Source of the DNA: an uncultured Spartobacteria bacterium
GTDB lineage: Bacteria > Verrucomicrobiota > Verrucomicrobiia > Chthoniobacterales > Chthoniobacteraceae
Direction of reading: 5' to 3'
DNA: 64,000 bases
Assembly (NCBI GenBank): GCA_903901425.1
Contig: CAIURC010000214.1
Location: forward strand, 1-64,000
This document shows, one piece after another, positions 31,700-44,919 of this stretch. The notes under the pieces were generated by a model. It did not search any database. It saw only the letters and a list, made by a program, of their open reading frames with translations, and was not told the origin of the DNA. Every line of letters begins with the position of its first letter. Position 1 is the stretch's first letter. Both the position numbers and the translations under genes were made by a program.

Positions 31700-31807
31700 A
31701 CTCGCCCGGTTCCGCCCAAAAAACCATCCGGTCTCCCCATGGACAGCGCCTCCGGAATCGGTGGTTCAGAAATTGCCGTCCCAAAAACCTCTGCTAGCTT
31801 TCCCGAC

Positions 31808-32338
31808 ATGCCAACGCCTGACTGGGAATCCGAGTTTCGCGCCGTCCATGCCCGCGCCATTCAGGCTTGGAATGCCGGGCGCCGTTCCCCGCGCTCCATG
31901 TTTTCCCCAGAAGACACCGCGTTTCTGCAGTCCATCGGATGCACCTGCCAGGAGCTTTTTGATTTTGTAGACGACCTCCAAGACTGGGGTGAACCCGGGC
32001 TAGAAACCGTGGTCGAAATCCAGCGCATCCGGCTCGCCTATTTCACCGAGGTCCAGCACGGCCAACTTTCGCACCATGTGGCGTCCATGGACGATCTGCC
32101 CCCAAAAAGCGAGGCCGTGGACGGGATTCCTTGGCTCCCCCGACTCATCGCCAAGGCCCGCCTCAAACTCCGCGGCGAAATGCCCCCAGACCTGATGTAC
32201 GGCTGCGGGGGGGACCGCCCGTTTGTTGCCCGGATGCGGACCACCCTCCCGGATCTTCTCCGACTCGTCTGGGAGTCCGGCTCAGACGATCGCAGAATTA
32301 TCGATACCGTCCGGAGAACCGCCGGTTTACTCCCCTGA
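31808..32338 (+). CDS. DUF5069-type protein
   Basis: This 176-residue protein appears to carry a DUF5069 domain in its C-terminal half: GIPWLPRLIAKARLKLRGEMPPDLMYGCGGDR is the recognisable block, followed by LPDLLRLVWESGSDD. The N-terminal half has FSPEDTAFLQSIGCTCQELFDFVDD, a combination I associate with verrucomicrobial members. There is no signal peptide or membrane helix, so it should be cytoplasmic. The function of the family is unknown. The ATG at 31808 is chosen over one at 31739 because it starts at the conserved region. It is divergent from comM, and a hairpin follows the stop codon. Confidence 0.72.
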   Translation: MPTPDWESEFRAVHARAIQAWNAGRRSPRSMFSPEDTAFLQSIGCTCQELFDFVDDLQDWGEPGLETVVEIQRIRLAYFTEVQHGQLSHHVASMDDLPPKSEAVDGIPWLPRLIAKARLKLRGEMPPDLMYGCGGDRPFVARMRTTLPDLLRLVWESGSDDRRIIDTVRRTAGLLP

Positions 32339-32342
32339 AAGC

Positions 32343-32380
32343 AAGGGGCCCGGAATTTTTCAAAAAAATTGTCCCCTTTT
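32343..32380 (+). terminator. Probable terminator after the DUF5069 gene
   Basis: Five bases past the stop codon AAGGGG and CCCCTT form an outer stem, and AATTTTT and AAAAATT an inner stem, interrupted by a bulge. A T-rich stretch (TTTTAT) follows. It is the most A/T-rich spot nearby and would separate this gene from the cytochrome gene that starts at 32419. Confidence 0.5.
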
Positions 32381-32418
32381 ATGGGGGTGCGCGGACAATA
32401 AGGAAATCCCCCCTTCCG

Positions 32419-35118
32419 ATGCGGTCCTTCCTGGCATTTACCCTTGGCATTCCCCTTCTCGCATGCGCGGACACCGCGCCCACCCCGAACCCCGGGCGCG
32501 CCCCCGAAGCCGTTCTCGGGGACAAACACCGGCCCCTGCTTGACACCCACTGCAAGGGATGTCACGGCCCTGAAAAACAGAAGGGCAAGTTCCGGGTGGA
32601 TGATCTCTCCTATCGCATTACCGATCCCCAAACCGCAGAACGCTGGCAGAAGGTTCTCGACGCCCTCAATTCGGGCGAAATGCCGCCGGAAGAAGAAAAG
32701 CAGCCCGGCGCGCAACAGAAAGCGGATCTCTTGGATGAACTGGCGCATGCGCTGGTGGCAGCGCGCCGTTCATTGAGCGACCAGCACGGGTTGATCACCC
32801 TGCGGCGGCTCAACCAGCGGGAGTTTAAGAATACGATCCGGTCCCTGCTGGGGGTGGATGTGGACACGAGCGACCTCCCCGCCGACACTGATGCCAGCCG
32901 CTTCGACACCGTGGGCGCCAACCTGTTCATGTCCGGCAACCAGTTTGAACAGTACGAAACCATTGCCCGCGAAGCCCTGGATGAAGCCTCTGTCCTGCAT
33001 GCGGCCCACGGCACCCAAAAACTCCTCAGGCTTGAGGTCGAATCCACCAACGCAGCAATCAGCAGTTACGTCGCGGAAAACCTGGACGCCCATGAACGCG
33101 CCAAAGCCTGGGTCAACGCCGTCGACGCAGCGGCCAACCGCCCCGAGAACGCCTCCGTGGTGGCCGCGTTGCGGAAAAACTCCAAGACCGACGCGATCTT
33201 CCGCCGGTCCTGGGAGAAAATTCAGGGTGCGCCCTCCCCGGAAACGTTCGGATTCAGCACTGTGGAGAACAATGCGGACAAGGCCAACCGCGCATTCGCC
33301 AACGGCCATGCCTCCCTCGCAAACCAGACCCGGTACCTGCAAAAACCCGGCCTTGAGACAGGCGCTTACCTTGCCCTGCACGACATCGATGGCGGACTCA
33401 ACGGCTCGCTGTTTATCCGGTTTCCCAACGATTTCCCGCCGGGCGACTACAAAATCCGTGTCCGGGCGGGGCTGGCACCCGGGGCTGCACCTGAACGGCG
33501 GTTCATTGATTTCGGATTCAAAGGCCGGAGCCGCCCCACGACTTCGGTCCATGAAGTGACCGGGACTTTGGAAAACCCGGGCATTTTTGAGATCCCGTTC
33601 CACCGCAACTGGAAACACCGGGATCAAAACGCCTATGGCGTGTACATCCGCGAAAAAGGCACGGCCGACTCGTTTGAACAGCTCAACTTCAAACGGGAAC
33701 AGGGCCGCAAGCTCAACGGGATTGGACCGGAACCGGTGATCTGGGTGGACTGGATCGAGATTGAGCGCGTCCCGGAATCGGAGGAAGCGGTGCCCCCCGG
33801 ACTCCGTGCCCTGACGGGAATCCCGCTGGACGACAAGCATGCCGTGCCGAAACCCGAGGTACTCCGTACCGGGTTCCAGAGGTTTGCCCTAGAGGCGTTC
33901 CGGGGGGCGCCGCCGTCGGACCGGTACCTGGACCGGCTGCTGGCCCATTACCAGGAGGCCAGGGCGCAGGGCACCCGGCACAGCGTTGCCCTCAGGGAAA
34001 CCCTGGCCGTGGTGCTTGCCTCGCCCAAGTTCCTTTACCGGGCCGAACCGGCTGAAACCCGGCGGCCCCTGCGCGGCCTGGAGATGGCCACCCGCCTCTC
34101 CTTTTTTCTCTGGGGCGAACCTCCCGATACTGCGCTCCGCACTCTGGGTGAAAACGGCGACCTCCTTGTCCCCCAAAGCCTCGCGCGGGAAACTGACCGG
34201 CTTCTGGACGATCCACGGTCCAAGGAGTTTGTACGCGCATTCACCCGCCAGTGGCTGAATCTCGACCGGCTCGATTTTTTCCAGTTCAACCCTACCCTCT
34301 ACCCGCGGTTTGATTACGGCGCAAAGCTCTCCGCCAAAAATGAGGTGTACGAATCGGTGGCACTCCTTCTCCGCGAGAACGGGAGCATACGGAACCTGCT
34401 CAAGGCAGACTACGTGGTGGTGAACCCGGTGTTGGCCGACTACTACGGACTTCCTGCCATTCATGGGGACCAGTTCCGGAAGGTACCGATTCCCCCGGAA
34501 TCGCCCCGGGGCGGTCTTCTGGGCATGGCCGCGATTCTGGCCATGGGCAGCAACGGCGAACACACCAGCCCTGTGGAACGCGGGGCATGGATCCTGCGCA
34601 AGGTCCTCAACGATCCGCCCCCGCCTGCCCCCGCCAACGTTCCCGCCCTGACCCGCCTTGCTGGAAAAGTGCTCACCACCAAGGAACGGGTCATGGCCCA
34701 TCAGGAAAATCCCCAGTGCGCAAGTTGCCACCGGAAAATTGATCCCCTCGGTTTTGCCCTCGAAAACTTCGACGCCGTAGGCCTCTGGCGGACTCAGGAC
34801 TCCTACCAGGCCACAGACGACCAGGGCAAACCCATCCCGAAGGCCGTCAAAACTTGGGATATCGACCCCTCCGGCGCGTTTCATCGCGGTCCCGAGTTCC
34901 GGGATTTCCCGGAAATGCGCTCCCTAGTGGCGGCAAAGGACGAAGCGTTTGCGCGCGGAATGATCTCCGCCCTGATCGAGTTCGGACTGGGCCGCCCCTG
35001 CGGCTTCAGCGACGAACCCCTGGTGGACTCCCTCCTGCTCCAAGCCCGGGCCAAAAACCTGTCGCTCCGCGCCACTCTGCACGCCCTGATCCAGAGCGAA
35101 CCCTTCCACATGAAGTAA
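32419..35118 (+). CDS. Large c-type cytochrome protein (DUF1587/1595/1592/1588/1585), possible lipoprotein
   Basis: This 899-residue exported protein belongs to the Planctomycetes-Verrucomicrobia cytochrome family. The N-terminus has a signal with LLAC, a lipobox candidate at Cys16, so it may be lipid-anchored. A haem motif CKGCH is at 45-49 (PSCyt1-like). DUF1587 follows (RRLNQREFKNTIRSLLG), then a beta-rich insert that looks like a ligand-binding jelly roll (about 310-450), then DUF1595/DUF1592 (ATRLSFFLWGEPPD), DUF1588 with a second CASCH and IDPLGFALENFDAVG, and DUF1585 at the C-terminus. The ATG at 32419 begins the signal. Its neighbour is a DUF1552 protein, the usual pair. These pairs are thought to act at the cell surface, perhaps in polysaccharide oxidation; the true role is unknown. 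Confidence 0.9.
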   Translation: MRSFLAFTLGIPLLACADTAPTPNPGRAPEAVLGDKHRPLLDTHCKGCHGPEKQKGKFRVDDLSYRITDPQTAERWQKVLDALNSGEMPPEEEKQPGAQQKADLLDELAHALVAARRSLSDQHGLITLRRLNQREFKNTIRSLLGVDVDTSDLPADTDASRFDTVGANLFMSGNQFEQYETIAREALDEASVLHAAHGTQKLLRLEVESTNAAISSYVAENLDAHERAKAWVNAVDAAANRPENASVVAALRKNSKTDAIFRRSWEKIQGAPSPETFGFSTVENNADKANRAFANGHASLANQTRYLQKPGLETGAYLALHDIDGGLNGSLFIRFPNDFPPGDYKIRVRAGLAPGAAPERRFIDFGFKGRSRPTTSVHEVTGTLENPGIFEIPFHRNWKHRDQNAYGVYIREKGTADSFEQLNFKREQGRKLNGIGPEPVIWVDWIEIERVPESEEAVPPGLRALTGIPLDDKHAVPKPEVLRTGFQRFALEAFRGAPPSDRYLDRLLAHYQEARAQGTRHSVALRETLAVVLASPKFLYRAEPAETRRPLRGLEMATRLSFFLWGEPPDTALRTLGENGDLLVPQSLARETDRLLDDPRSKEFVRAFTRQWLNLDRLDFFQFNPTLYPRFDYGAKLSAKNEVYESVALLLRENGSIRNLLKADYVVVNPVLADYYGLPAIHGDQFRKVPIPPESPRGGLLGMAAILAMGSNGEHTSPVERGAWILRKVLNDPPPPAPANVPALTRLAGKVLTTKERVMAHQENPQCASCHRKIDPLGFALENFDAVGLWRTQDSYQATDDQGKPIPKAVKTWDIDPSGAFHRGPEFRDFPEMRSLVAAKDEAFARGMISALIEFGLGRPCGFSDEPLVDSLLLQARAKNLSLRATLHALIQSEPFHMK

Positions 35119-35142
35119 CAACCCCTCCCACCCCAATTCGTT

Positions 35143-36432
35143 ATGACCTCCTCCAGACGCCAGTTCCTCCGCTCCAGCACCTCGCTGATCGCCCTTCCTT
35201 TCCTCGAATCCCTCGGGTTCCGCAGGTTCGCCTCCGCCGCGACCGTGGCTTCCCGGCCAAAACGCCTCGTGTTTCTCGGACTCGGCTGGGGGTTGACCAC
35301 CGAGACCTGGTTTCCAGACAACCAGAAGCCCGGCGCCGACTATCCGCTGCCCTTGGGACTTGAACCCCTCGCCCGTCACAAGGCCGATTTTTCCGTGCTC
35401 CAAGGGCTGACGCACCGTTTTGTGAACGCGGGCCACCAGGGGTCCACCTTCTGGCTCACTGGCGCCAACCAGTTCGCGGTGCCTGGCAAAAGCTTCCACA
35501 ACACCATTTCCGCCGATCAGGTGGCTGCAGCCCAGTTCGGCCGCGAAACCCGGTTTACCTCCCTCCAACTCGATTGCGGCACCTACGCGGGAAACTCGGG
35601 ACACGGCCCGGGACTCTCCGTGGCATGGGATGCCAGCGGCAAACCGGTGGCGGGCCAGAAAAACCCGGTCGAAGCGTTCCACCGCCTTTTTTCTTCCGAA
35701 GACACCCCGATTGAAAAACGCAAGACCCTGCTCCGGCAGCGCCACAGCGTTTTGGACACCGTTTTGGAGGACGCGCACGACCTTCGGCGCGGCCTCGGCA
35801 ATGACGACAACGCCAAACTCGAGGAATACTTCGAAGGCATCCGCGACATCGAAATCCGGCTCGGCAAGGACGAGCAGTGGCTTGAAATCCCGCGTCCCAA
35901 ACCGTCCATGCCCGCCCCCAAGTCCGTGCTGGCCGGGTACAAAGAGATTGAACTGATGTACGACATTCTGGTTGCCGCGCTCCAGACCGACTCCACCCGG
36001 GTCATCGGATACCGCCAACCTGTGGACACGCTGCTCACCAGCCTGGACATCAAGGTGTTTCCCCATGACATGAGCCATTACCACTCCACCATGGGCGAAA
36101 AACTCGACGCCTCCCAGCGGCGGGATACCGCCAACAGTGAACTGCTCGCCGGGCTGATCGACAAACTCAAGGCCTCCAAGGAACCCGATGGCTCCAGCCT
36201 GTTCGACCACACCACGATCGCGTTCGGCACCAACACCCGCACCGAACACAACGGCGACAACTGCCCCACCCTCCTTGCGGGCCACGGCGCGGGTTTGAAG
36301 ATGGGCCACAACATCGTCCTCCCCAAGGGCACCCCACTCTGCAACGCCTGGCTCACCCTCCTCCAAGGGTCCGGCGTTCAGGTCGAACGCCACGGCGACA
36401 GCACCGGCCCCATCAAGGAACTCCTCGCCTGA
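35143..36432 (+). CDS. DUF1552 family protein with Tat signal
   Basis: This 429-residue protein starts with a twin-arginine signal (SSRRQFLRSSTSLIALPFLESL). The body carries DUF1552 hallmarks such as KRLVFLGLGWG, NQFAVPGKSFHN-like region, SADQVAA and NSGHGPGLSVAW. It starts 24 bases after the cytochrome gene, the conserved partner. Members share features with the alkaline phosphatase/sulfatase-like DUF1501 proteins, and are exported folded. The biochemical activity is unknown. The ECF sigma gene begins 4 bases after its stop, so the two are almost certainly co-transcribed. Confidence 0.9.
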   Translation: MTSSRRQFLRSSTSLIALPFLESLGFRRFASAATVASRPKRLVFLGLGWGLTTETWFPDNQKPGADYPLPLGLEPLARHKADFSVLQGLTHRFVNAGHQGSTFWLTGANQFAVPGKSFHNTISADQVAAAQFGRETRFTSLQLDCGTYAGNSGHGPGLSVAWDASGKPVAGQKNPVEAFHRLFSSEDTPIEKRKTLLRQRHSVLDTVLEDAHDLRRGLGNDDNAKLEEYFEGIRDIEIRLGKDEQWLEIPRPKPSMPAPKSVLAGYKEIELMYDILVAALQTDSTRVIGYRQPVDTLLTSLDIKVFPHDMSHYHSTMGEKLDASQRRDTANSELLAGLIDKLKASKEPDGSSLFDHTTIAFGTNTRTEHNGDNCPTLLAGHGAGLKMGHNIVLPKGTPLCNAWLTLLQGSGVQVERHGDSTGPIKELLA

Positions 36433-36436
36433 CCCC

Positions 36437-36985
36437 ATGAGCGGTCCCCTGCCCAAACTCCTCAACGACGCGGCCTCACAATTCATCCGGGACAGACATC
36501 TCCTCGGAGCCTTCATCGGCGGTCTGGTCCGGGATTCCCATGCCGCCGAGGATCTCCTTCAGGAAGTCTGGGTCCGCCTCGCTGCCGAACTGGAAAAAGG
36601 CACTTCCATCCTCAACCAGGCCGCATGGTGCCGCGGGGTCGCAAAAAACTTGGTCCGCAGGCACTGGGAAAAAAACCAGCGCTCCATCCCCACGGCCGAT
36701 CCGGACTCCCTTTCGCTTTTTCTGGACCGGGTTGAACACTGCTTTCAGGAAGCCCATCCGGATTCCGCTACCGACCGCATCGCGGCACTGGACCAGTGCG
36801 TGGATTCCCTTCCAGACCGGTCCCGGCGCCTCCTCACCCTCCGGTACCACCTCAATGCTGACATGGATTCAATAGCCGCCGAAACCGGCCTTTCGTTTGA
36901 AGCCGCCAAGAAAGCCCTGATCCGGATCCGGGCGGAGTTGATGGACTGCGTTCAGAACCGAATCCGGGGAGGCCTGTGGGCATGA
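36437..36985 (+). CDS. ECF-type RNA polymerase sigma factor
   Basis: This 182-residue sigma-70-family factor has region 2 near residues 20-85 (DSHAAEDLLQEVWVRLAAELE, the typical core-binding helix) and region 4 near 120-175 (DSLPDRSRRLLTLRYHLNADMDSIAAETGLS with a HTH). The CLQRLP-like signature of the Rhodopirellula/Verrucomicrobium ECF group is only partly kept (CVDSLPDRSR). It begins 4 bases after the DUF1552 stop and its own stop overlaps the ATG of the next gene by four bases. It is therefore the regulatory part of the cytochrome run and is probably held by the anti-sigma-like protein encoded next. Confidence 0.92.
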   Translation: MSGPLPKLLNDAASQFIRDRHLLGAFIGGLVRDSHAAEDLLQEVWVRLAAELEKGTSILNQAAWCRGVAKNLVRRHWEKNQRSIPTADPDSLSLFLDRVEHCFQEAHPDSATDRIAALDQCVDSLPDRSRRLLTLRYHLNADMDSIAAETGLSFEAAKKALIRIRAELMDCVQNRIRGGLWA

Positions 36986-37974
36986 ACTCCATCGACCTGG
37001 TGGAAACGCTCGAACGCTGGAAGGACGGGACCCTCGCCGGCGCCGATTTGGAACGCCTGAACCATGCCTTGGAATCTGCCGATTTCAGGACCCGCCTTCT
37101 AGACACGTGGCTTCTGGACCATTCGCTTCCAGGGATCCTTGCCCGGCACTCCATCCAATCTGACCTTCCCGCCCCCGGCACCTCCCGGCGGGTTTTGCGC
37201 AATCCGCTCTTGAAAACATTCGGCGCAGCCGCGGCGGGGCTTTTGCTCGGACTTTTCAGCGCCTCCTACGTTTTTGGAAAAGCCGCGTTTCCCCACAGAA
37301 AAGTGGTCCCGCTTCTGAATGAAAGCTTTGAGTCCGGGCCGACTCCCGGCCAAAACGGGATTCCCGTCGTGCCGAACCGGTGGAGCGGCGACTTCAGCCG
37401 GGTGGTTGACGCGCAGCAGGGCGTCCAACCCAACTCCGGGAAACGGATGCTCCAGCTCTGCCGTGCCGATTACGAAGGCAAACACCCCGGCTTCAGCTAC
37501 TCGGCAGACATTTACCGGATCGTCCCGATTCCAAAAGGACTCACAGGGCTTGGGGAAGCCAGTGTCACGTGCGAAGCCCAGTGTTCAAGCGTCCCCTTTG
37601 CTGAAGCCAAGCGCTACGGCATCAGCCTCATCCTCTGTGCGCTGGATGCACTCCCGGATTCCGCAGAACCGGGAGCATGGAAACCGGGTTCGGCCCAACC
37701 GGAACCCCACCCGTCTGAAAACGCCGAACTCGTCTCCGCCTCGGCCCGGCGCTCACTGTCTCTGGATCCCCGGGGAATGACCTGGCAGCCCCTGCGTCTG
37801 GAGATGAGGCTGCCTGCGGGCACACGCTATCTGTTGATGAGCTTCCATCTTGCCGACCACCAGGCTGGAAGAAATCCCCGTGAATCTGGGGCCACGGAGT
37901 TTCCGGGCCACTTCCTGGATTCGATTCAGGTGAACTTGGTTCAGGACGCGTCCGCGTCAAACCCGCGCCCTTGA
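36982..37974 (+). CDS. Membrane-anchored anti-sigma-like protein with extracytoplasmic beta domain
   Basis: This 330-residue protein has an N-terminal cytoplasmic helical segment (about 1-60; LVETLERWKDGTLAGADLERLNHAL, resembling anti-sigma zinc-less domains of this lineage), one membrane helix (about 76-95; TFGAAAAGLLLGLFSASYVFG) and a C-terminal beta-rich ectodomain (about 105-320) that looks like a jelly roll (LLNESFESGPTPGQNG, then WSGDFSRVVDAQQGVQPNSG). The start is ATG at 36982 in an ATGA overlap with the sigma stop. No sequence match to a named anti-sigma family is certain; the role is inferred from gene order and topology. The ectodomain could sense a glycan outside the cytoplasmic membrane. 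Confidence 0.65.
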   Translation: MNSIDLVETLERWKDGTLAGADLERLNHALESADFRTRLLDTWLLDHSLPGILARHSIQSDLPAPGTSRRVLRNPLLKTFGAAAAGLLLGLFSASYVFGKAAFPHRKVVPLLNESFESGPTPGQNGIPVVPNRWSGDFSRVVDAQQGVQPNSGKRMLQLCRADYEGKHPGFSYSADIYRIVPIPKGLTGLGEASVTCEAQCSSVPFAEAKRYGISLILCALDALPDSAEPGAWKPGSAQPEPHPSENAELVSASARRSLSLDPRGMTWQPLRLEMRLPAGTRYLLMSFHLADHQAGRNPRESGATEFPGHFLDSIQVNLVQDASASNPRP

Positions 37975-37992: not shown

Positions 37993-39102
37993 TCACTGGG
38001 CCTCCTCAACCATCGGTTCACGCACCGGCGTGCCATCGCTCCATACGCCCATGAAACGCTGTGCGGGAGTGTTTCCAAGCGCCGCGTCCCGGGAATTCCC
38101 ATGGAATGCGGCCCCGATCAGGGCATCCATCCATTTCCAGTACCCGTAGTAATCCAGAGCGTCCGCACGCCCCCCCCGGCCTTTCCTTTTCCCGCCCAGC
38201 TGCGCCCGGCCGCTGAATACCGACTGCAGGTCCTCGAAATTGCTCAGACTCATGTCCGGACACACCGGCGCAAAATGGTCCGCCACCAACCCCGGCTGCC
38301 CATGGGAATCTGACTCCAACCGGATCAGATTCTTGTTCCGGGGTTGCACCCGAACCGATTTTTCAAAAATCGCCCGGCTCACGGTCTCCCCAACCAAGCG
38401 GTCCTCGGCTCCAGCCACCACCAACAGAAACAGGTCTGGAATCTCGGAGGGCGACTGCAACACCGGGGTCGCAAACTCCAAAAGCACGTTGGCATCACCG
38501 GCGTTGCAGGCCATCAGCGCGCGAGGCACAGGCAACCCCTCCTTTTCAGCCATTGCACAAAGATTTGCCCCAATGCTTGCCCCTAGGGAGTACCCCAGAA
38601 CCGCCCAGCGCCCTTCCGGGTCAGGCCGGGGATGCCCGGCTTCCTCGGCCAACACCTTCCACGCATTCCGTACCCCAACCATCGCGTCCCGGGTGTAGTT
38701 CTCCAGCCCAAACGGATCCGTCTGGTACAGCGGGAAAATCACACTGTGCCCCTTCCTCACCAAATGCGAAATCCATGCCCCGCTGCTCCCAGACTCCACA
38801 CCGCCGTACCCGTGGAGAAAAACCACGATCGGAGCCGTAACACACACCGGCGCCTCGGGCTCGAAAATCCAGCAGGTCTGCGCCCCAGAACCGAACGGAC
38901 CGCATTTGCGCACCCCGCCATGCCGGTAATCCGCCCCACCCGGCCCCAGAGCAGGCTGTTCCGGAGGCAGAACCGACTGCCCAAATGCCGTCCCGGCAAA
39001 AACCCAGACTCCCATCCACAGCCCAACGCACCAGTCCCGGCGCCTGAAACAACATCCCTGTAAAAATCCGGCAACCGCATCAAAAACATTTTTAATTTTC
39101 AT
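37993..39102 (-). CDS. Exported alpha/beta hydrolase
   Basis: This 369-residue secreted hydrolase has a long signal peptide (about 1-42, ending WVFAGTAFG). The oxyanion-hole segment is VVFLHGYGG. The nucleophile elbow is GYSLG with Ser172. The acid is likely in VVAGAEDRLVG, and the histidine in ESDSHGQPG. The arrangement resembles chlorophyllase/PET-hydrolase-like and dienelactone hydrolase-like esterases. ATG at 39102 is preceded by AGGAAG at good spacing; an upstream frame to 39237 is rejected. It lies 145 bases downstream of the two-component pair on the same strand and converges on the anti-sigma-like gene. The substrate is unknown. Confidence 0.8.
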   Translation of the reverse strand: MKIKNVFDAVAGFLQGCCFRRRDWCVGLWMGVWVFAGTAFGQSVLPPEQPALGPGGADYRHGGVRKCGPFGSGAQTCWIFEPEAPVCVTAPIVVFLHGYGGVESGSSGAWISHLVRKGHSVIFPLYQTDPFGLENYTRDAMVGVRNAWKVLAEEAGHPRPDPEGRWAVLGYSLGASIGANLCAMAEKEGLPVPRALMACNAGDANVLLEFATPVLQSPSEIPDLFLLVVAGAEDRLVGETVSRAIFEKSVRVQPRNKNLIRLESDSHGQPGLVADHFAPVCPDMSLSNFEDLQSVFSGRAQLGGKRKGRGGRADALDYYGYWKWMDALIGAAFHGNSRDAALGNTPAQRFMGVWSDGTPVREPMVEEAQ

Positions 39103-39247
39103 GGCGACTTCCTGAAACCCTTGAACTCCGGGTCCCACGCACAACGGCGGGGTGCTGGAAACTCTGCCCGGCGTCTGACCAGCCGGCAACAGGACGAAAG
39201 TCACGCCGAGGTCATCCCCGTCATGACCGGGAAGCAATCCGCCCCCC

Positions 39248-39895
39248 TCAGACTATCCCTAGATCCCGCGCCTTGATTACGGCCTGAGTCCGGTCCAGGA
39301 CCTCGAGCTGGGAGAAAATCCGGGTCAGATGGTTTTTTACGGTGCCCTCTGCGACTCCCAGATCCGATGCAATTTCCTTGTTGGACCTTCCGGCGGCGAG
39401 CAACCGAAGCACATCATTTTCGCGGCTCGATAGCCCGGGAAGATCTCGCCGTGGCGCCCTTGGAACCGCCAGCCTCCGGAACTCGCGAAGCACCCGTGCA
39501 GTCACCTCGCCGTCCAAAAAACTCCGGCCGCCGGCAACCTCCCGAATGACCCTGGAAAGTTCGCCCGCCGACACGTCCTTAAGCAGGTAGCCGCAGGCCC
39601 CCGCCTGCAAAGCGGCAAACACCTCCTCCTCCTCGTCAAACGTGGTAAGCACCAGGACGCGGGCACCGGGCGTCTGCTCGCAGATCCGCTGCGTGGCCTC
39701 GATCCCGTTCCACACTGGCATCCGGAGATCCATCAAAACCACGTCCGGATTGAGTCGCTCAAACTCGAAGAGTGCTTCCTGACCGTTGGCCGCCTCCCCA
39801 CAGACCACCAACCCCTCCTGCCGCGAAAGCAACGCCTTTAACCCATCCCGCATCAAAGCCTGATCATCCACCACAAGAACGCGGATCACATTCAT
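39248..39895 (-). CDS. NarL/FixJ-type response regulator
   Basis: This 215-residue response regulator has a receiver domain (about 1-120) with acidic residues Asp10-Asp11, phospho-acceptor Asp56 in DVVLMDLRMP, Thr in VLTTFDEEE and Lys in GYLLKDVSA. The LuxR-type HTH covers about 150-212 (LSSRENDVLRLLAAGRSNKEIASDLGV, then VKNHLTRIF). The start overlaps the histidine kinase stop by four bases. It will be phosphorylated by that kinase. The only obvious neighbour it might control is the secreted hydrolase downstream. Confidence 0.93.
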   Translation of the reverse strand: MNVIRVLVVDDQALMRDGLKALLSRQEGLVVCGEAANGQEALFEFERLNPDVVLMDLRMPVWNGIEATQRICEQTPGARVLVLTTFDEEEEVFAALQAGACGYLLKDVSAGELSRVIREVAGGRSFLDGEVTARVLREFRRLAVPRAPRRDLPGLSSRENDVLRLLAAGRSNKEIASDLGVAEGTVKNHLTRIFSQLEVLDRTQAVIKARDLGIV

Positions 39896-41169
39896 ACGGG
39901 TACAGTCAAAGCGATTGAAAATCCCTCCTCCGATCCGCCCTGCACCACCAGGGTTCCGCCAAGAATCTCCGCGCGCTCCCTTAAACCCTGCAGCCCAAAC
40001 CCCGCGCCCACGCTCTCCCCACCCGGCCCGTCATCGCGGACGACCAACCGGACCGCATCCTGGGCCTGGTAATCCAACTCCACCCATGCGCGACTCCCGA
40101 GCGCATGCTTGCGCACGTTTGTCAGGCCCTCCTGCGCAGCACGGTACAAAGCCAACTTCACCCCAGCTGGCAGCTCGCGTTCCACACCCAACACCTGAAG
40201 TTCAACGTTCCGGCCTCCGTTCCGGTGCTCAAAAACCAGGTCTTTCACCCCCTGGCTCAGACTCCGCGCATACGAGACCCCGCCGCGCAACATCCTGACT
40301 GACTCACGCACCTCCCGAAGTCCTTCAGACGCGCAGATCTTGGCTTTGGCCACTGCCTCCCGGGCCTCCTCCGGCCCGGCGGCCCCCATGGCAACCTCCA
40401 ACTGAACCCCGATGACCGTCAGCGAATGGCCCAGTAGGTCGTGAATCTCACGGGCCATATGGTTGCGTTCCTGCGCCACCGCAAGTTCCTGCGCCTGAAC
40501 CGCCATCCGGCCCAAGTCACGGTTCGCCGCATCCAAACGCACCGCTGCCAACTCGGCATCTGAACGGCTTTTCTCGGTAGACACCCAAAGCACGCTCAAC
40601 AGCAGGGTGAACGCGCACTCACAGAAAAAGCCCCAGCCGCGGACCGAGCCCAGCCCAAAAAATCCGGCGTACACTGCGAGCGTTAACCCCGTAAACCCTA
40701 GCGCCCCTCCCAGGGACAGGTGAATGACCGCATGCAAGAGACCGGGCAGTAAGAGCAACCGGACGATCCCTGCGGATCTGGAGGGCAAAGCCAGCCAAAT
40801 ACACAAGGCCGAAAGCAGCAGTTCGCCCCCCAAAAACACCAGCGCGCCAAGTCTCGGCACAATCGGCCACGGCATTTCACTCCGCTGCAAGCCTGCGGCA
40901 CCGATCCAAGCTCGGAACGGTCCCATTCCCCACCATCCCCAAAAAAGGTGTGCCACCAAGGCCAGCCCCATGACCCAGAATTTGCCAGTCTGCTCTCCGC
41001 GCAAAAATCCCTGCCCAAGGATCATCCAGCCCGACAGACACGACACTGCCCACCCCCATTCCAGCATCCGCAAAAGATGCCTGCGCCCAACTGCCCCGGC
41101 TCCTCCAGAATCCGCCACGCCTGGGATCTGCCCATCGGCAAGCGACAGTTCCTTCAAATCCTCAGTCAT
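39892..41169 (-). CDS. NarL-type sensor histidine kinase (HisKA_3)
   Basis: This 425-residue membrane kinase has five or six hydrophobic segments (about 35-195) and no extended periplasmic domain, so it probably senses through the membrane. The HisKA_3 dimerisation/phosphoacceptor segment has AREIHDLLGHSL, with His243. The HATPase domain (about 330-425) has NVRKHALGSRAWV (N-box), VRDDGPGG and FGLQGLRERAEILGG. It overlaps the response regulator gene by four bases. The signal is unknown. Confidence 0.92.
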   Translation of the reverse strand: MTEDLKELSLADGQIPGVADSGGAGAVGRRHLLRMLEWGWAVSCLSGWMILGQGFLRGEQTGKFWVMGLALVAHLFWGWWGMGPFRAWIGAAGLQRSEMPWPIVPRLGALVFLGGELLLSALCIWLALPSRSAGIVRLLLLPGLLHAVIHLSLGGALGFTGLTLAVYAGFFGLGSVRGWGFFCECAFTLLLSVLWVSTEKSRSDAELAAVRLDAANRDLGRMAVQAQELAVAQERNHMAREIHDLLGHSLTVIGVQLEVAMGAAGPEEAREAVAKAKICASEGLREVRESVRMLRGGVSYARSLSQGVKDLVFEHRNGGRNVELQVLGVERELPAGVKLALYRAAQEGLTNVRKHALGSRAWVELDYQAQDAVRLVVRDDGPGGESVGAGFGLQGLRERAEILGGTLVVQGGSEEGFSIALTVPV

Positions 41170-41417: not shown

Positions 41418-41791
41418 AAACAGCAGTTCGCCGCCAACTCAGGCAACTCTGCGCCGTGCTGGGATTGTACGTTGTTTTCAGGCTCACCCGCAGCTCCATT
41501 CCGCCAAGCCTGCTCCGGGACAGCCTTCCCAGCCTGCTTTTTCCCCTGGCACTCCTCCCCTCTCTTGAGACCGCACAATCCCTGCTGCACACCGGCTCAT
41601 CCCGGGTCCGGATCGCCCTCTGCGGCTGCCTCTCGGCGGTCCTCACCGAAGGCCTCGCCCCGGCACTCGGCCGGGGTACCCCCGACCCGGCAGACTTCGC
41701 CGCCATTCTCGCCGGAACCGCTCTTCACCTTCTGTGGCACCATCGTCAGGCGGCTCCCACATCCCCCAAACGCCCCGAACCGGCGCCCTAA
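41414..41791 (+). CDS. Small VanZ-like hypothetical membrane protein
   Basis: This 125-residue frame encodes about four hydrophobic segments (LCAVLGLYVVF, LPSLLFPLALLPSL, IALCGCLSAVLTEGLAP, FAAILAGTALHLLW). The TEGL...GRGTPDPADF...G pattern resembles the C-terminal part of VanZ-like proteins, whose general role is unknown. The start is GTG at 41414, overlapping the micro-frame. A longer reading frame that runs back to 40724 crosses the histidine kinase gene on the other strand and is rejected. The last four bases overlap the convergent hybrid kinase gene. Confidence 0.5.
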   Translation: MKTAVRRQLRQLCAVLGLYVVFRLTRSSIPPSLLRDSLPSLLFPLALLPSLETAQSLLHTGSSRVRIALCGCLSAVLTEGLAPALGRGTPDPADFAAILAGTALHLLWHHRQAAPTSPKRPEPAP

Positions 41792-44700
41792 CCCGGCTGC
41801 GATCCACGCAAACTCGTGTCGAGGAGTTGCTGGATTTTCTGACGCAACTGCGGGAGCCGGAACGGTTTCTGGAGAAACGCCTCCATGCTCTGATCGGCAA
41901 AGCACGCCACCACCTCGGTCTCGTCGTACCCGCTCATCACGATGGCTTTCAGTCCAGGTTGGAACCGGCGCATCCCCCGCAAGGACTCGTCCCCGTGCAA
42001 CTGCGGCATGGTGAGGTCCAACAGGACCAGAGCGAAGTCCTCCTCTCGCTCCGCCACGGCTGCCACCGCCTCTGCACCGTTGCTGACGTGCCGCACCACA
42101 AACCCCAAGGACTGCAACATCAGCGACACGGTGACCCGGACCGTGTCCTCGTCGTCCACAACCAACACTGTTCCGCATCCTTTCCAAGGCGCATCGCCGG
42201 TCCCACCCGCCACTGCGAGAGCACCGTCTTTCTCGATGCATGGAAAGTGGAGTTCGAAGCACGTTCCCTTGCCGGGTTCGCTCTCCACGCTCAAAGCCCC
42301 CTTGTGCCCCCTCATGATTCCGAGCACCGCAGCCAGACCCAATCCGCGCCCCGTTTTTTTCGTCGTGTAAAACGGTTCAAAGATCCGTTTTCTGGTTTCC
42401 GGTGACATCCCGGCCCCGGTGTCCCGGACCCGCAGACAGACATAGCGTCCCGGCTCCAAGGGGCCGACAAGGTTGCCCGGAAGCGTCTTGCCTCGAGCCA
42501 CGTTGACCACGCGGGTACTGACCAGAATCGTCCCCCGCTGGTCTCCAATCGCCTCTGCGGCGTTGATCAGGAGGTTCATCAGAACCTGGCGCACCTGGGT
42601 TGCATCCGCACGGATCTGGGGCACCTGTGGCAGCAGCGAGTACTGCAAATCCACCTTCTTGCTCATTGAAATCTGCACCAACCGCGCCGTCTCCTCCACC
42701 GCCGAGTTCAGGTTCAACTCCTCGACCAAAAAACGACCCTTGCCCGAGTAGGCAAGCATCTGCCGGCACAAATCCGCCGCCCGGGTGGCCGCAATCTCGA
42801 TCTGATCCAGATACACCCCAAGTTCGGTGTTTTCTCCCGCATCAGACCGCGCCAAATTCGCGTTCCCAATGATCCCCGTGAGCAGGTTGTTGAAGTCGTG
42901 CGCAATGCTTCCCGCCAGAATCCCCAAGCTCTCCAGTTTCTGCGTTTCCTGAAGTTGCCGGTCAAAATCCTGCTGTTCGGCTTCCCGCTGGCGCCGCGCA
43001 GAAATGTCACGGCAGAACGCTAGCAACCGTTTTCCTTTCCCCGTCTCGCGGACACCAGCACTCAACTCGACCGGCACCACGGCCCCGTCCGGTGAAACCA
43101 GGTCGACCTCCAAGTTCCGGATTGCACCCGCCTTCAAACCCTCGCGGTACGCCTGACGGACCCGGTCCCGGTCCGCCTCAGCCACCCAAGTTTCCAGAGG
43201 CATTCCCAAAAGATCCTCAAAACCCCGGCGGCCCGTCATCCGCATGAACTCCTCGTTGACCTCGGCCACACGCCCCTCCTCGTCCAGATGCACGAAACCC
43301 GTGCCTGTGGCCTCCACCAGCGTGTAATAAAGCAACTCATGCTCCCGCAACAGCGCCTCGGAGCGGACCCGCTCCGTCACGTTCCGAACCAAAGAAAGCA
43401 CCGACTCCACTTTTCCATCCCGGTCCCGCATCACGGTGTTCTGCCAGACGCAATGGAGCACTTCGCCGCCTTTGGTCCGGTTGCGCACCTCAAACACCTG
43501 CGTCTCCAATTCCTGACCGCTCTGCCCCTCCACCAAACCCGTCATGCAGCGGGCGAACTCCGCCATGTCCTCCGGATGAACCAGAGTCAGATCCGCAAAA
43601 TGACGACCCACCACCTCCGCAGACTCCCACCCAAAGAGAGTCCCCGACTGACCACTCCACAGCTGCACATGCAACCCGCCATCCCACTCGACCACCGCCA
43701 TCGGCGACCGCTCCACGTGCCCCATCCACTGGCGCCTCTTGCTCTCCATTTCCCGCTCCGACTCCCGCAACTGGGTCACGTCCCGCGAGACCCCCACCAA
43801 CCCGTACACATTCCCCTCCGAATCCAGCAGCGGATACTTGGAGGTCATCAACCGGCGCTCCTCCCCACGCCCGTCCACACACCGCTCCTCCCGGTTCAAC
43901 AGCGCGCGGGCCGTCTCCACCACCTGCCGGTCGTCCGCCTCATAGGCGCTCACCAGCGCCTCCGGCACCGCCCATTCCCTCACCGTCCGCCCCAGTGCCT
44001 CCGCATCCGTCACCCCAAACGCACGACGCGCTGCCTCGTTCAATGCCAAATGCCGCCCGGCGCGGTCCTTGAAAAAAATCAGGTCCGGAATGGCGTCAAT
44101 CAAAGTCCTCAACAACCGCCGTTCATCCGCGAGTTTATTCTCTGTCTCCCGCTTGGCCGTGATGTCTCTTGAGACTCCCACCAACCCGATCACCTCCCCG
44201 CTCTCGTCCCGCAACGGGTACTTGGAGGTCAGGTACCATCCCACACTCCCATCCACCGCCACGTACGGTTCCTCCCGGTTCACCACGGGCCGTCCCTGGC
44301 CAATCACCTCCATGTCGTCTTCGTGATACCGATCCGCATAGCGCCGGGTCTCTTCCAACTCAAACACCGTCAACCCAATCGCCTTTGCCCCACCCACCCC
44401 CATCTGCCGCTCCGACGCCGAGTTCCTCAACAAAAACCGACCCTGCGTGTCCTTGCAAAAGATCAGGTCCGGCACCGCATCGATCAGCGCCCTCAACAGC
44501 AACCGTTCCCCGGACTGCTCCCAGGCATCCCCGCCAACCGCCGCCACCTCCCGGTGGCAGTGCAACTGCATCCGGCCCTTCCCGTTCGGAAACTGAATGA
44601 ACCGCACCGAATAATCCGTGACCACCTGCGCCCCACCCTTCTTTTGAAACGACAACTGCCCTCGCCAGAACCCCTCCCGCTCCAACCCCAAACCGATCTC

Positions 44701-44919
44701 CGCGTTTAACCGGGCCGCATTCTGGGGCGCATTCAGCACCCCCACCCGCTGGCCAGTCAGCTCCGCGCAACTCCAGCCAAAAATCCGCTCCGTCGCTCCA
44801 TTGCAATCCACCACCCGCCCGTTTTCGTCGCTCAAAAGAACGGCAAAATCCAAGGCCTCAAACACGCCGGCACGTGGCCCAAGCTCACCGGTCAGGATCG
44901 GAGGACGATCAGTTTCCAT
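41788..44919 (-). CDS. Hybrid histidine kinase with five PAS domains and a receiver domain
   Basis: This 1043-residue protein has no signal peptide or membrane helix, so it is cytoplasmic. Five PAS/PAC units precede the kinase (about residues 15-125, 135-255, 260-380, 390-515, 520-640). Two of them share nearly identical openings, LLRALIDAVPDLIFCKD and LLRTLIDAIPDLIFFKD, a sign of recent duplication. The HisKA has AHDFNNLLTGIIGNANLA near 670. The HATPase domain covers about 760-890 (GRGLGLAAVLGIMRGH). The receiver domain covers about 910-1035 (LVVDDEDTVRV; phospho-Asp in VLLDLTMP; Lys in LQKPF). Such proteins integrate internal redox or ligand signals; no partner regulator is adjacent. Confidence 0.92.
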   Translation of the reverse strand: METDRPPILTGELGPRAGVFEALDFAVLLSDENGRVVDCNGATERIFGWSCAELTGQRVGVLNAPQNAARLNAEIGLGLEREGFWRGQLSFQKKGGAQVVTDYSVRFIQFPNGKGRMQLHCHREVAAVGGDAWEQSGERLLLRALIDAVPDLIFCKDTQGRFLLRNSASERQMGVGGAKAIGLTVFELEETRRYADRYHEDDMEVIGQGRPVVNREEPYVAVDGSVGWYLTSKYPLRDESGEVIGLVGVSRDITAKRETENKLADERRLLRTLIDAIPDLIFFKDRAGRHLALNEAARRAFGVTDAEALGRTVREWAVPEALVSAYEADDRQVVETARALLNREERCVDGRGEERRLMTSKYPLLDSEGNVYGLVGVSRDVTQLRESEREMESKRRQWMGHVERSPMAVVEWDGGLHVQLWSGQSGTLFGWESAEVVGRHFADLTLVHPEDMAEFARCMTGLVEGQSGQELETQVFEVRNRTKGGEVLHCVWQNTVMRDRDGKVESVLSLVRNVTERVRSEALLREHELLYYTLVEATGTGFVHLDEEGRVAEVNEEFMRMTGRRGFEDLLGMPLETWVAEADRDRVRQAYREGLKAGAIRNLEVDLVSPDGAVVPVELSAGVRETGKGKRLLAFCRDISARRQREAEQQDFDRQLQETQKLESLGILAGSIAHDFNNLLTGIIGNANLARSDAGENTELGVYLDQIEIAATRAADLCRQMLAYSGKGRFLVEELNLNSAVEETARLVQISMSKKVDLQYSLLPQVPQIRADATQVRQVLMNLLINAAEAIGDQRGTILVSTRVVNVARGKTLPGNLVGPLEPGRYVCLRVRDTGAGMSPETRKRIFEPFYTTKKTGRGLGLAAVLGIMRGHKGALSVESEPGKGTCFELHFPCIEKDGALAVAGGTGDAPWKGCGTVLVVDDEDTVRVTVSLMLQSLGFVVRHVSNGAEAVAAVAEREEDFALVLLDLTMPQLHGDESLRGMRRFQPGLKAIVMSGYDETEVVACFADQSMEAFLQKPFRLPQLRQKIQQLLDTSLRGSQPG

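Follow-up and report, generated by a model that had tools for sequence, protein, structure and literature searches.

Here we describe a run of four plus-strand genes at positions 32419-37974 of a 64,000-nt stretch (the window; contig CAIURC010000214.1, positions 1 to 64,000) from an uncultured freshwater Spartobacteria bacterium (Verrucomicrobiota), which code, in this order, for a cytochrome, a DUF1552 protein, an extracytoplasmic function (ECF) sigma factor and an anti-sigma factor. We consider it likely that this run is an autoregulated operon with positive feedback that senses a substrate, probably a carbohydrate. The computed support covers the gene order, the domain make-up, the recurrence of the sigma/anti-sigma cassette, a promoter class that follows the sigma and a sensor that follows the cytochrome/DUF1552 pair. 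Genomes of Planctomycetota and Verrucomicrobiota carry tens of copies of planctomycete-type cytochromes with DUF1552 partners, and what these proteins do has been a question ever since their naming.

The open reading frames (ORFs) and their translations agreed with the coordinates of all four genes, and the spacing given in an earlier note on this DNA was reproduced exactly: 24 nt between cytochrome and DUF1552, 4 nt between DUF1552 and sigma, and an ATGA overlap between sigma and anti-sigma. The gene identities proposed there also stood, since Pfam and NCBIfam confirmed the cytochrome, the DUF1552 protein and the ECF sigma, and a profile together with a membrane helix backed the anti-sigma. 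On the 5' side, a DUF5069-like gene (31739-32338) ends 80 nt before the cytochrome and, on the 3' side, the next gene (37993-39237) lies on the opposite strand; the four-gene run is therefore bounded. Scanning the run for internal plus-strand terminators and sigma-70 promoters returned none, and neither a terminator nor a separate promoter, which the earlier note would have counted against its proposal, was visible at 36432-36437.

The sigma gene (36437-36985, plus strand; 182 residues) encodes regions 2 and 4 without regions 1 or 3, the make-up of ECF (group 4 sigma-70) factors. Its product exceeded the cut-offs of Sigma70_r2 (32.9 bits; cut-off 24) and TIGR02937 (47.8; cut-off 42.9), fell slightly below that of Sigma70_r4_2 (25.0; cut-off 25.7), and with ~107 bits stayed under the curated 124.55 of TIGR02989, the Rhodopirellula/Verrucomicrobium sigma subfamily. 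In a tree of 61 sigmas, it grouped with those of loci L094, L118, L119, L125 and L109 (support 100/98; handles in L, G and C denote loci, genomes and contigs). Upstream of the window cytochrome the DNA reads AATTGTCCCC-TTTTATGGGGGTGCGC-GGACAAT, in which we predict an ECF promoter composed of an A-rich run (32361-32369) just 5' of a -35 element TGTCCCC (32370-32376) and, 16 nt further on, a -10 element GGAC (32393-32396), all on the plus strand. The same -35 element stands ahead of the opening gene in the units that hold the most similar sigmas of relatives, and the spacing is identical in all seven related sites. The window and the five loci just named share TGTCC-N18-[GC]GAC with a preceding A/T-rich run, and the element stands before whichever gene opens the unit, this being the cytochrome in the window and L094 and the sigma in L118, L119, L125 and L109. 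The likeness of the window site to the sigma upstreams of L118, L119 and L125 had been recorded before the sigma tree was built. Sequences before the sigma genes of all cassettes displayed ECF-like layouts that fall into several classes, and a predicted -10 often ends ~6-10 nt before the sigma start codon (L103, L110, L184, L126 and other sigma upstreams), which suggests leaderless transcripts.

When a weight matrix derived from the seven related sites, with the window site left out, was run over 946,032 positions of the source genome, position 32370 ranked 1/946,032, and 2 Mb of simulated sequence held no equal. Likewise, the window site was the sole exact match to the strict pattern in the 5.1-Mb source genome, where no other site had 0 or 1 mismatch. 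Across 57 genomes the strict pattern gave 13 matches, five of them at expected sites (G000, G001, G002, G012:C146 and G013); among the remainder, G012:C49 resembles a real site at a contig end and the others look like chance. At this contig end (G012:C49:34344; L273/L313) a perfect TGTCCCC-type promoter is followed by the start MPAESQAIHK, like that of related sigma genes, which soon breaks off, and the site is possibly a decayed sigma copy. No promoter of this class was found before the sigma gene at 36437 in the window. The earlier note had asked for a shared -35/-10 both upstream of 32419 and at other cytochrome/DUF1552 loci: the first part held, in that an ECF-type promoter lies there and recurs, in relatives, before the units of the most similar sigmas, but the second did not, the element being unique in the source genome and not found at its other cytochrome/DUF1552 loci.

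A second, independent promoter class, CGTTAAAT-N12-GGCARCT, served as a control; it occurs before the G006 sigma (L097) and the divergent cytochrome of the same locus, before a stand-alone G030 sigma (L095), and before the orthologous cytochromes of G030 (L134) and G002 (L135). Neither of these last two cytochromes has a sigma beside it, the G030 sigma L095 being on another contig. In the 57 genomes this pattern matched 7 times (reversed control: 0), and 6 of the 7 matches immediately preceded one of the system's cytochrome or sigma genes, one of them (G027:C289) unused when the pattern was defined. Where relatives have a different sigma clade with the orthologous pair, the promoter class differs too. 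From the distribution of both classes we conclude that each promoter class goes with a sigma clade, in trans as well as in cis. The orthologous cytochrome at G002:C5 (L135) carries the form CGTTAAAT-N12-GGCAACT in the absence of a close relative of the usual sigma.

The product of the anti-sigma gene (36982-37974, plus strand) was modelled with a mean predicted local distance difference test score (pLDDT) of 83. It matched no Pfam family (E up to 0.1) and no NCBIfam family, RsgI and FecR included. A family profile built from 47 relatives and searched against PDB sequences gave five matches, all over the N-terminal part, with RsiW best (E 0.006) and RseA (0.19) and MucA (0.3) among them. Class I anti-sigma factors bind sigma through an N-terminal three-helix bundle plus a fourth helix and are encoded with their ECF sigma. 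The model places three helices (residues 6-15, 20-30 and 33-56) in a predicted anti-sigma domain (residues 1-56; 36982-37149), the gene overlaps that of the ECF sigma, and sigma adjoins anti-sigma in nearly all loci examined, the exceptions being at contig ends. A hydrophobic stretch predicted as a helix (residues 75-101; 37204-37284) would cross the membrane. Beyond it, residues 107-321 (37300-37944) form a predicted periplasmic sensor domain, modelled as a beta-sandwich like those of carbohydrate-binding modules (CBMs). Compared with PDB structures, the best matches of this ectodomain model were CBM61 (Z 12.9), CBM22 (12.5), CBM16 (11.8) and CBM4 (11.6), with Z 11.4-12.9 over these families, together with sugar-binding F-box proteins; the outer domain of the anti-sigma is thus predicted to have a CBM fold.

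The two ends of the anti-sigma have different closest relatives. Its N-terminal domain most resembles the corresponding part of L094, L124/L125, L119 and L118, the sigma's own clade. The ectodomain has its nearest relatives in L094, L095, L096, L097 and L098, whose cassettes adjoin orthologous or closely related pairs or, for L095, share a genome with such a pair. In the ectodomain tree, the window, L094, L095 and L097 formed one clade (98/93). Constraining the ectodomains to the sigma clade was rejected (delta lnL, the log-likelihood difference, 197), and constraining the sigmas to the ectodomain clade cost 78 log units (p 2e-7), p-values that are not strictly blind, as the groups tested had been named from earlier BLAST results. 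By these sequence comparisons the anti-sigma is chimeric, with a sigma-binding part that follows the sigma and a sensor that follows the cytochrome/DUF1552 pair. We conclude that sigma, anti-sigma domain and promoter were exchanged as a set, the sensor staying with the pair. An assembly error is unlikely because G001, an independent assembly, has the same join.

Next, we consider how often the cassette recurs. The source genome (5.1 Mb, 224 contigs) holds 27 DUF1552 genes, nearly all adjoining a cytochrome gene, and ~13 cassettes with relatives of the anti-sigma. Eight of the latter adjoin a cytochrome/DUF1552 gene, seven upstream of it (contigs C2, C114, C207, C12, C188, C63 and C196) and the window's alone downstream; two more (C69 and C71) lie beside related PSCyt2-PSD1/DUF1501 or DUF1501 genes. 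Random placement would give ~1% per cassette and P ~6e-13 for 8 of ~13, on a gene number that is a rough assumption. Such recurrence, far above chance, indicates that the cassette and the cytochrome/DUF1552 pair belong together, with the usual place of the cassette in front. Cassettes without a DUF1552 neighbour precede genes for an FGE-sulfatase domain protein, GH28/pectate-lyase-like, GHL10, PSCyt2-PSD1 plus DUF1501, oxidoreductase or TolB-like proteins, which lends support to a carbohydrate theme without proving it. In several relatives, closely related sensor cassettes (L106, L108, L113 and L114) stand before an unannotated ~480-residue family and GH28/pectate-lyase-like or GHL10 proteins. 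Locus L049 (G000:C69; 10141-11307) has a pair of sigma genes from the family back to back, ~120 nt apart, near a DUF1552-cytochrome pair, and one of these sigma genes heads a PSCyt2-PSD1/DUF1501 unit.

The gene order in relatives, which the earlier note had proposed to compare, was kept in part. With orthologues of the window DUF1552 defined at >=79% identity, the order cytochrome-DUF1552-sigma-anti-sigma recurs in one other genome (G001:C2; DUF1552 89% identical). The cassette lies directly upstream of the orthologous pair in G006, in G027 and in a second G001 copy, and upstream with a gene-sized gap in L177; in G030 and G002 the orthologous pair has no adjacent cassette. Cassette and pair also stand together in two cultured strains, Verrucomicrobium sp. 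BvORR034 and BvORR106, in the order sigma-anti-sigma-cytochrome-DUF1552 (L184/L202), and the planctomycete Aporhodopirellula aestuarii has them with a gap. Among named records, the nearest is a metagenome-assembled genome labelled Chthoniobacter flavus, such labels being unreliable. Divergent from the orthologous operon in G001:C2, an ORF (L094:1439-2332, minus strand) joins the signal peptide and CxxCH of a cytochrome straight to the second half of a DUF1552 protein behind a promoter of the same TGTCC class, and looks like a deletion fusion that retained its promoter.

As for the pair itself, the cytochrome gene (32419-35118, plus strand) encodes a planctomycete-style cytochrome c with a signal peptide and two CxxCH motifs. 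All six of its domains (PSCyt1, PSD3/DUF1587, PSD5/DUF1595, PSD4/DUF1592, PSCyt3/DUF1588 and PSD2/DUF1585) exceeded the Pfam cut-offs, and this six-domain set places it among the DUF1592-type PSCyt cytochromes. The DUF1552 protein (35143-36432, plus strand; the HXXSHH family), with a twin-arginine-like N-terminus, scored 253 bits against PF07586 (cut-off 30), and its motif HDMSHYH at residue 308 fits HxxSHxH; H308, H312, H369 and D125 are invariant. A profile search of PDB sequences gave no match, and its placement came from fold comparison alone: the predicted model (pLDDT 84; predicted template modelling score, pTM, 0.83) aligned with NPPs and PafA (Z 16.5) and sulfatases (Z ~15) across ~240-260 residues, and the top Foldseek match (2.7e-5) was to the alkaline phosphatase superfamily. 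By its predicted fold the DUF1552 protein thus belongs to the alkaline phosphatase/sulfatase superfamily, fold alone being no proof of function. On the minus strand just 3' of the run, we also observed a NarL-type response regulator with a histidine kinase (39248-41169) and a large multi-PAS-like hybrid kinase (41788-44919).

We propose that the N-terminal domain of the single-pass anti-sigma would keep the ECF sigma at the inner membrane while the CBM-like domain samples the periplasm. Binding of a ligand, most likely a poly- or oligosaccharide or a breakdown product, would release the sigma, probably through regulated proteolysis, and the freed sigma would bring RNA polymerase to TGTCCCC-N16-GGAC (32370-32396), from which cytochrome, DUF1552, sigma and anti-sigma would be transcribed together. 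The result would be a positive loop, in which more substrate yields more of the periplasmic redox/sulfatase-like pair and more of its own regulator. In this scheme we infer the single transcript, the sigma-promoter and sigma-anti-sigma contacts, the ligand class, the release mechanism and the enzymatic role of the pair. The core proposal of the earlier note, autoregulation through an extracytoplasmic signal, gains support from the ECF-type promoter before the cytochrome, from the absence of internal promoters and terminators in the scan of the run, and from the CBM-fold outer domain.

Several observations weigh against this interpretation. GGAC departs from the textbook -10 of ECF promoters, and the window site is also a partial inverted repeat (TTGTCC...GGACAA). 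A search of G002 (96% complete) for a sigma to match its CGTTAAAT promoter gave nothing closer than ~40%. Over all pairs, sigma identity correlated weakly with upstream similarity (rho 0.15; 0/500 permutations as high); most sigma pairs are too distant, and clade-level tests were used instead. Finally, the CBM-type fold is also present in Eph receptors and other proteins, so that sugar binding is unproven by fold. This last point bears on the alternative that survives best, namely that the cassette answers envelope or general stress, the CBM-like domain recognizing a protein or a damaged part of the envelope and the pair being a stress system. The fold does occur in protein-binding domains, and the shared response of Rhodopirellula baltica to heat, cold and salt includes a DUF1552 gene and an ECF sigma that is associated with a PSD1/PSCyt2 gene (PMC2754498). 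Nevertheless, across many paralogues the sensor changes along with the enzyme genes beside it, and other cassettes precede sulfatase-maturation and GH28-like genes, a better fit to substrate sensing than to one stress signal; we regard a stress system as unlikely, if deserving of serious weight.

The sigma pair could instead be a passenger beside the cytochrome pair, with its own promoter and other target genes. Its downstream position is unusual, 7 of the 8 cassettes beside such pairs in the source genome being upstream, some relatives have no cassette at the orthologous place, and stand-alone cassettes exist (L095). The 4-nt gap, the absence, ahead of the sigma gene, of any site of this class, terminator or sigma-70 match, the matching promoter before the cytochrome that is unique in the genome, and the order kept in G001 together make this improbable. 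Slightly less probable still is that TTGTCC-N18-GGACAA serves as an operator bound by a dimeric transcription factor and not as an ECF promoter: although the pattern finds the window site on both strands, its right half varies in relatives (CGAC, GGACG, GGACT), orientation, A-rich 5' side and 16-nt spacing are constant, and sigma clade predicts the class. Least probable is a global role, with the sigma controlling in trans a large share of the 27 DUF1552 loci. Trans arrangements do occur in relatives (G030: L095 with L134), but the source genome holds a single match at 0 or 1 mismatch, and its cassettes of other sigma clades have different upstream elements.

If the four genes form a substrate-sensing operon as we favor, the CBM-fold sensor in the same predicted operon, together with the promoter, makes the role of the pair testable, since a glycan that binds the sensor or induces the promoter would reveal the substrate class. 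The swapped sets of sigma, anti-sigma domain and promoter would be natural orthogonal ECF switches. On a broader scale we suggest, tentatively and at a little short of an even chance, that bacteria of the Planctomycetes-Verrucomicrobia-Chlamydiae (PVC) group have a multi-paralogue network of substrate-sensing ECF cassettes with CBM-fold sensors, a counterpart of SigI/RsgI, in which sigma and anti-sigma domain can be swapped under a conserved sensor along with the matching promoter, and in which the pairs are carbohydrate-processing enzymes induced by their own substrate.

Our searches of the open-licence literature turned up no account of DUF1592/DUF1552 pairs being under ECF control; as far as that literature goes, new here are the ECF link for these pairs, a sensor with a CBM fold, the promoter predictions and the swapping of sigma sets. 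In freshwater Verrucomicrobia, PSCyt/PSD clusters with the same cytochrome domain group as in the window have been described, each cytochrome group beside a partner family and some with CBMs, and a carbohydrate role was suggested (PMC5615132); the main text does not mention 'sigma' and describes no regulation. In R. baltica, the ECF sigma RB10049 was proposed to regulate the adjacent PSD1/PSCyt2 protein RB10051 (Studholme et al., 2004, cited in PMC2754498). There, too, an ECF sigma gene lies beside a planctomycete-type cytochrome-domain gene, but that cytochrome-domain protein is of the DUF1549/DUF1553 group, and the available part of PMC2754498 describes no sensor or promoter, whereas the window combines a DUF1592-type cytochrome and DUF1552 with a CBM-fold anti-sigma and a predicted promoter. 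FecI/FecR similarly consist of an ECF sigma and a single-pass membrane regulator encoded together; in contrast, the window anti-sigma has no FecR match, its sensor is CBM-like and the run lacks a TonB-dependent receptor. The polysaccharide-sensing, autoregulated SigI/RsgI pairs of Clostridium thermocellum (PMC4711584, PMC12203970) share with the window system several paralogous pairs, a single-pass anti-sigma with outer domains of carbohydrate-binding type (by predicted fold in the window), promoters that differ by paralogue and, as proposed here, autoregulation. They differ in that the window has an ECF-type sigma, no Pfam RsgI domain, another phylum, and predicted periplasmic cytochrome/DUF1552 targets in place of cellulosome genes. 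By analogy, then, the window system would work like SigI/RsgI without being a member of that family.

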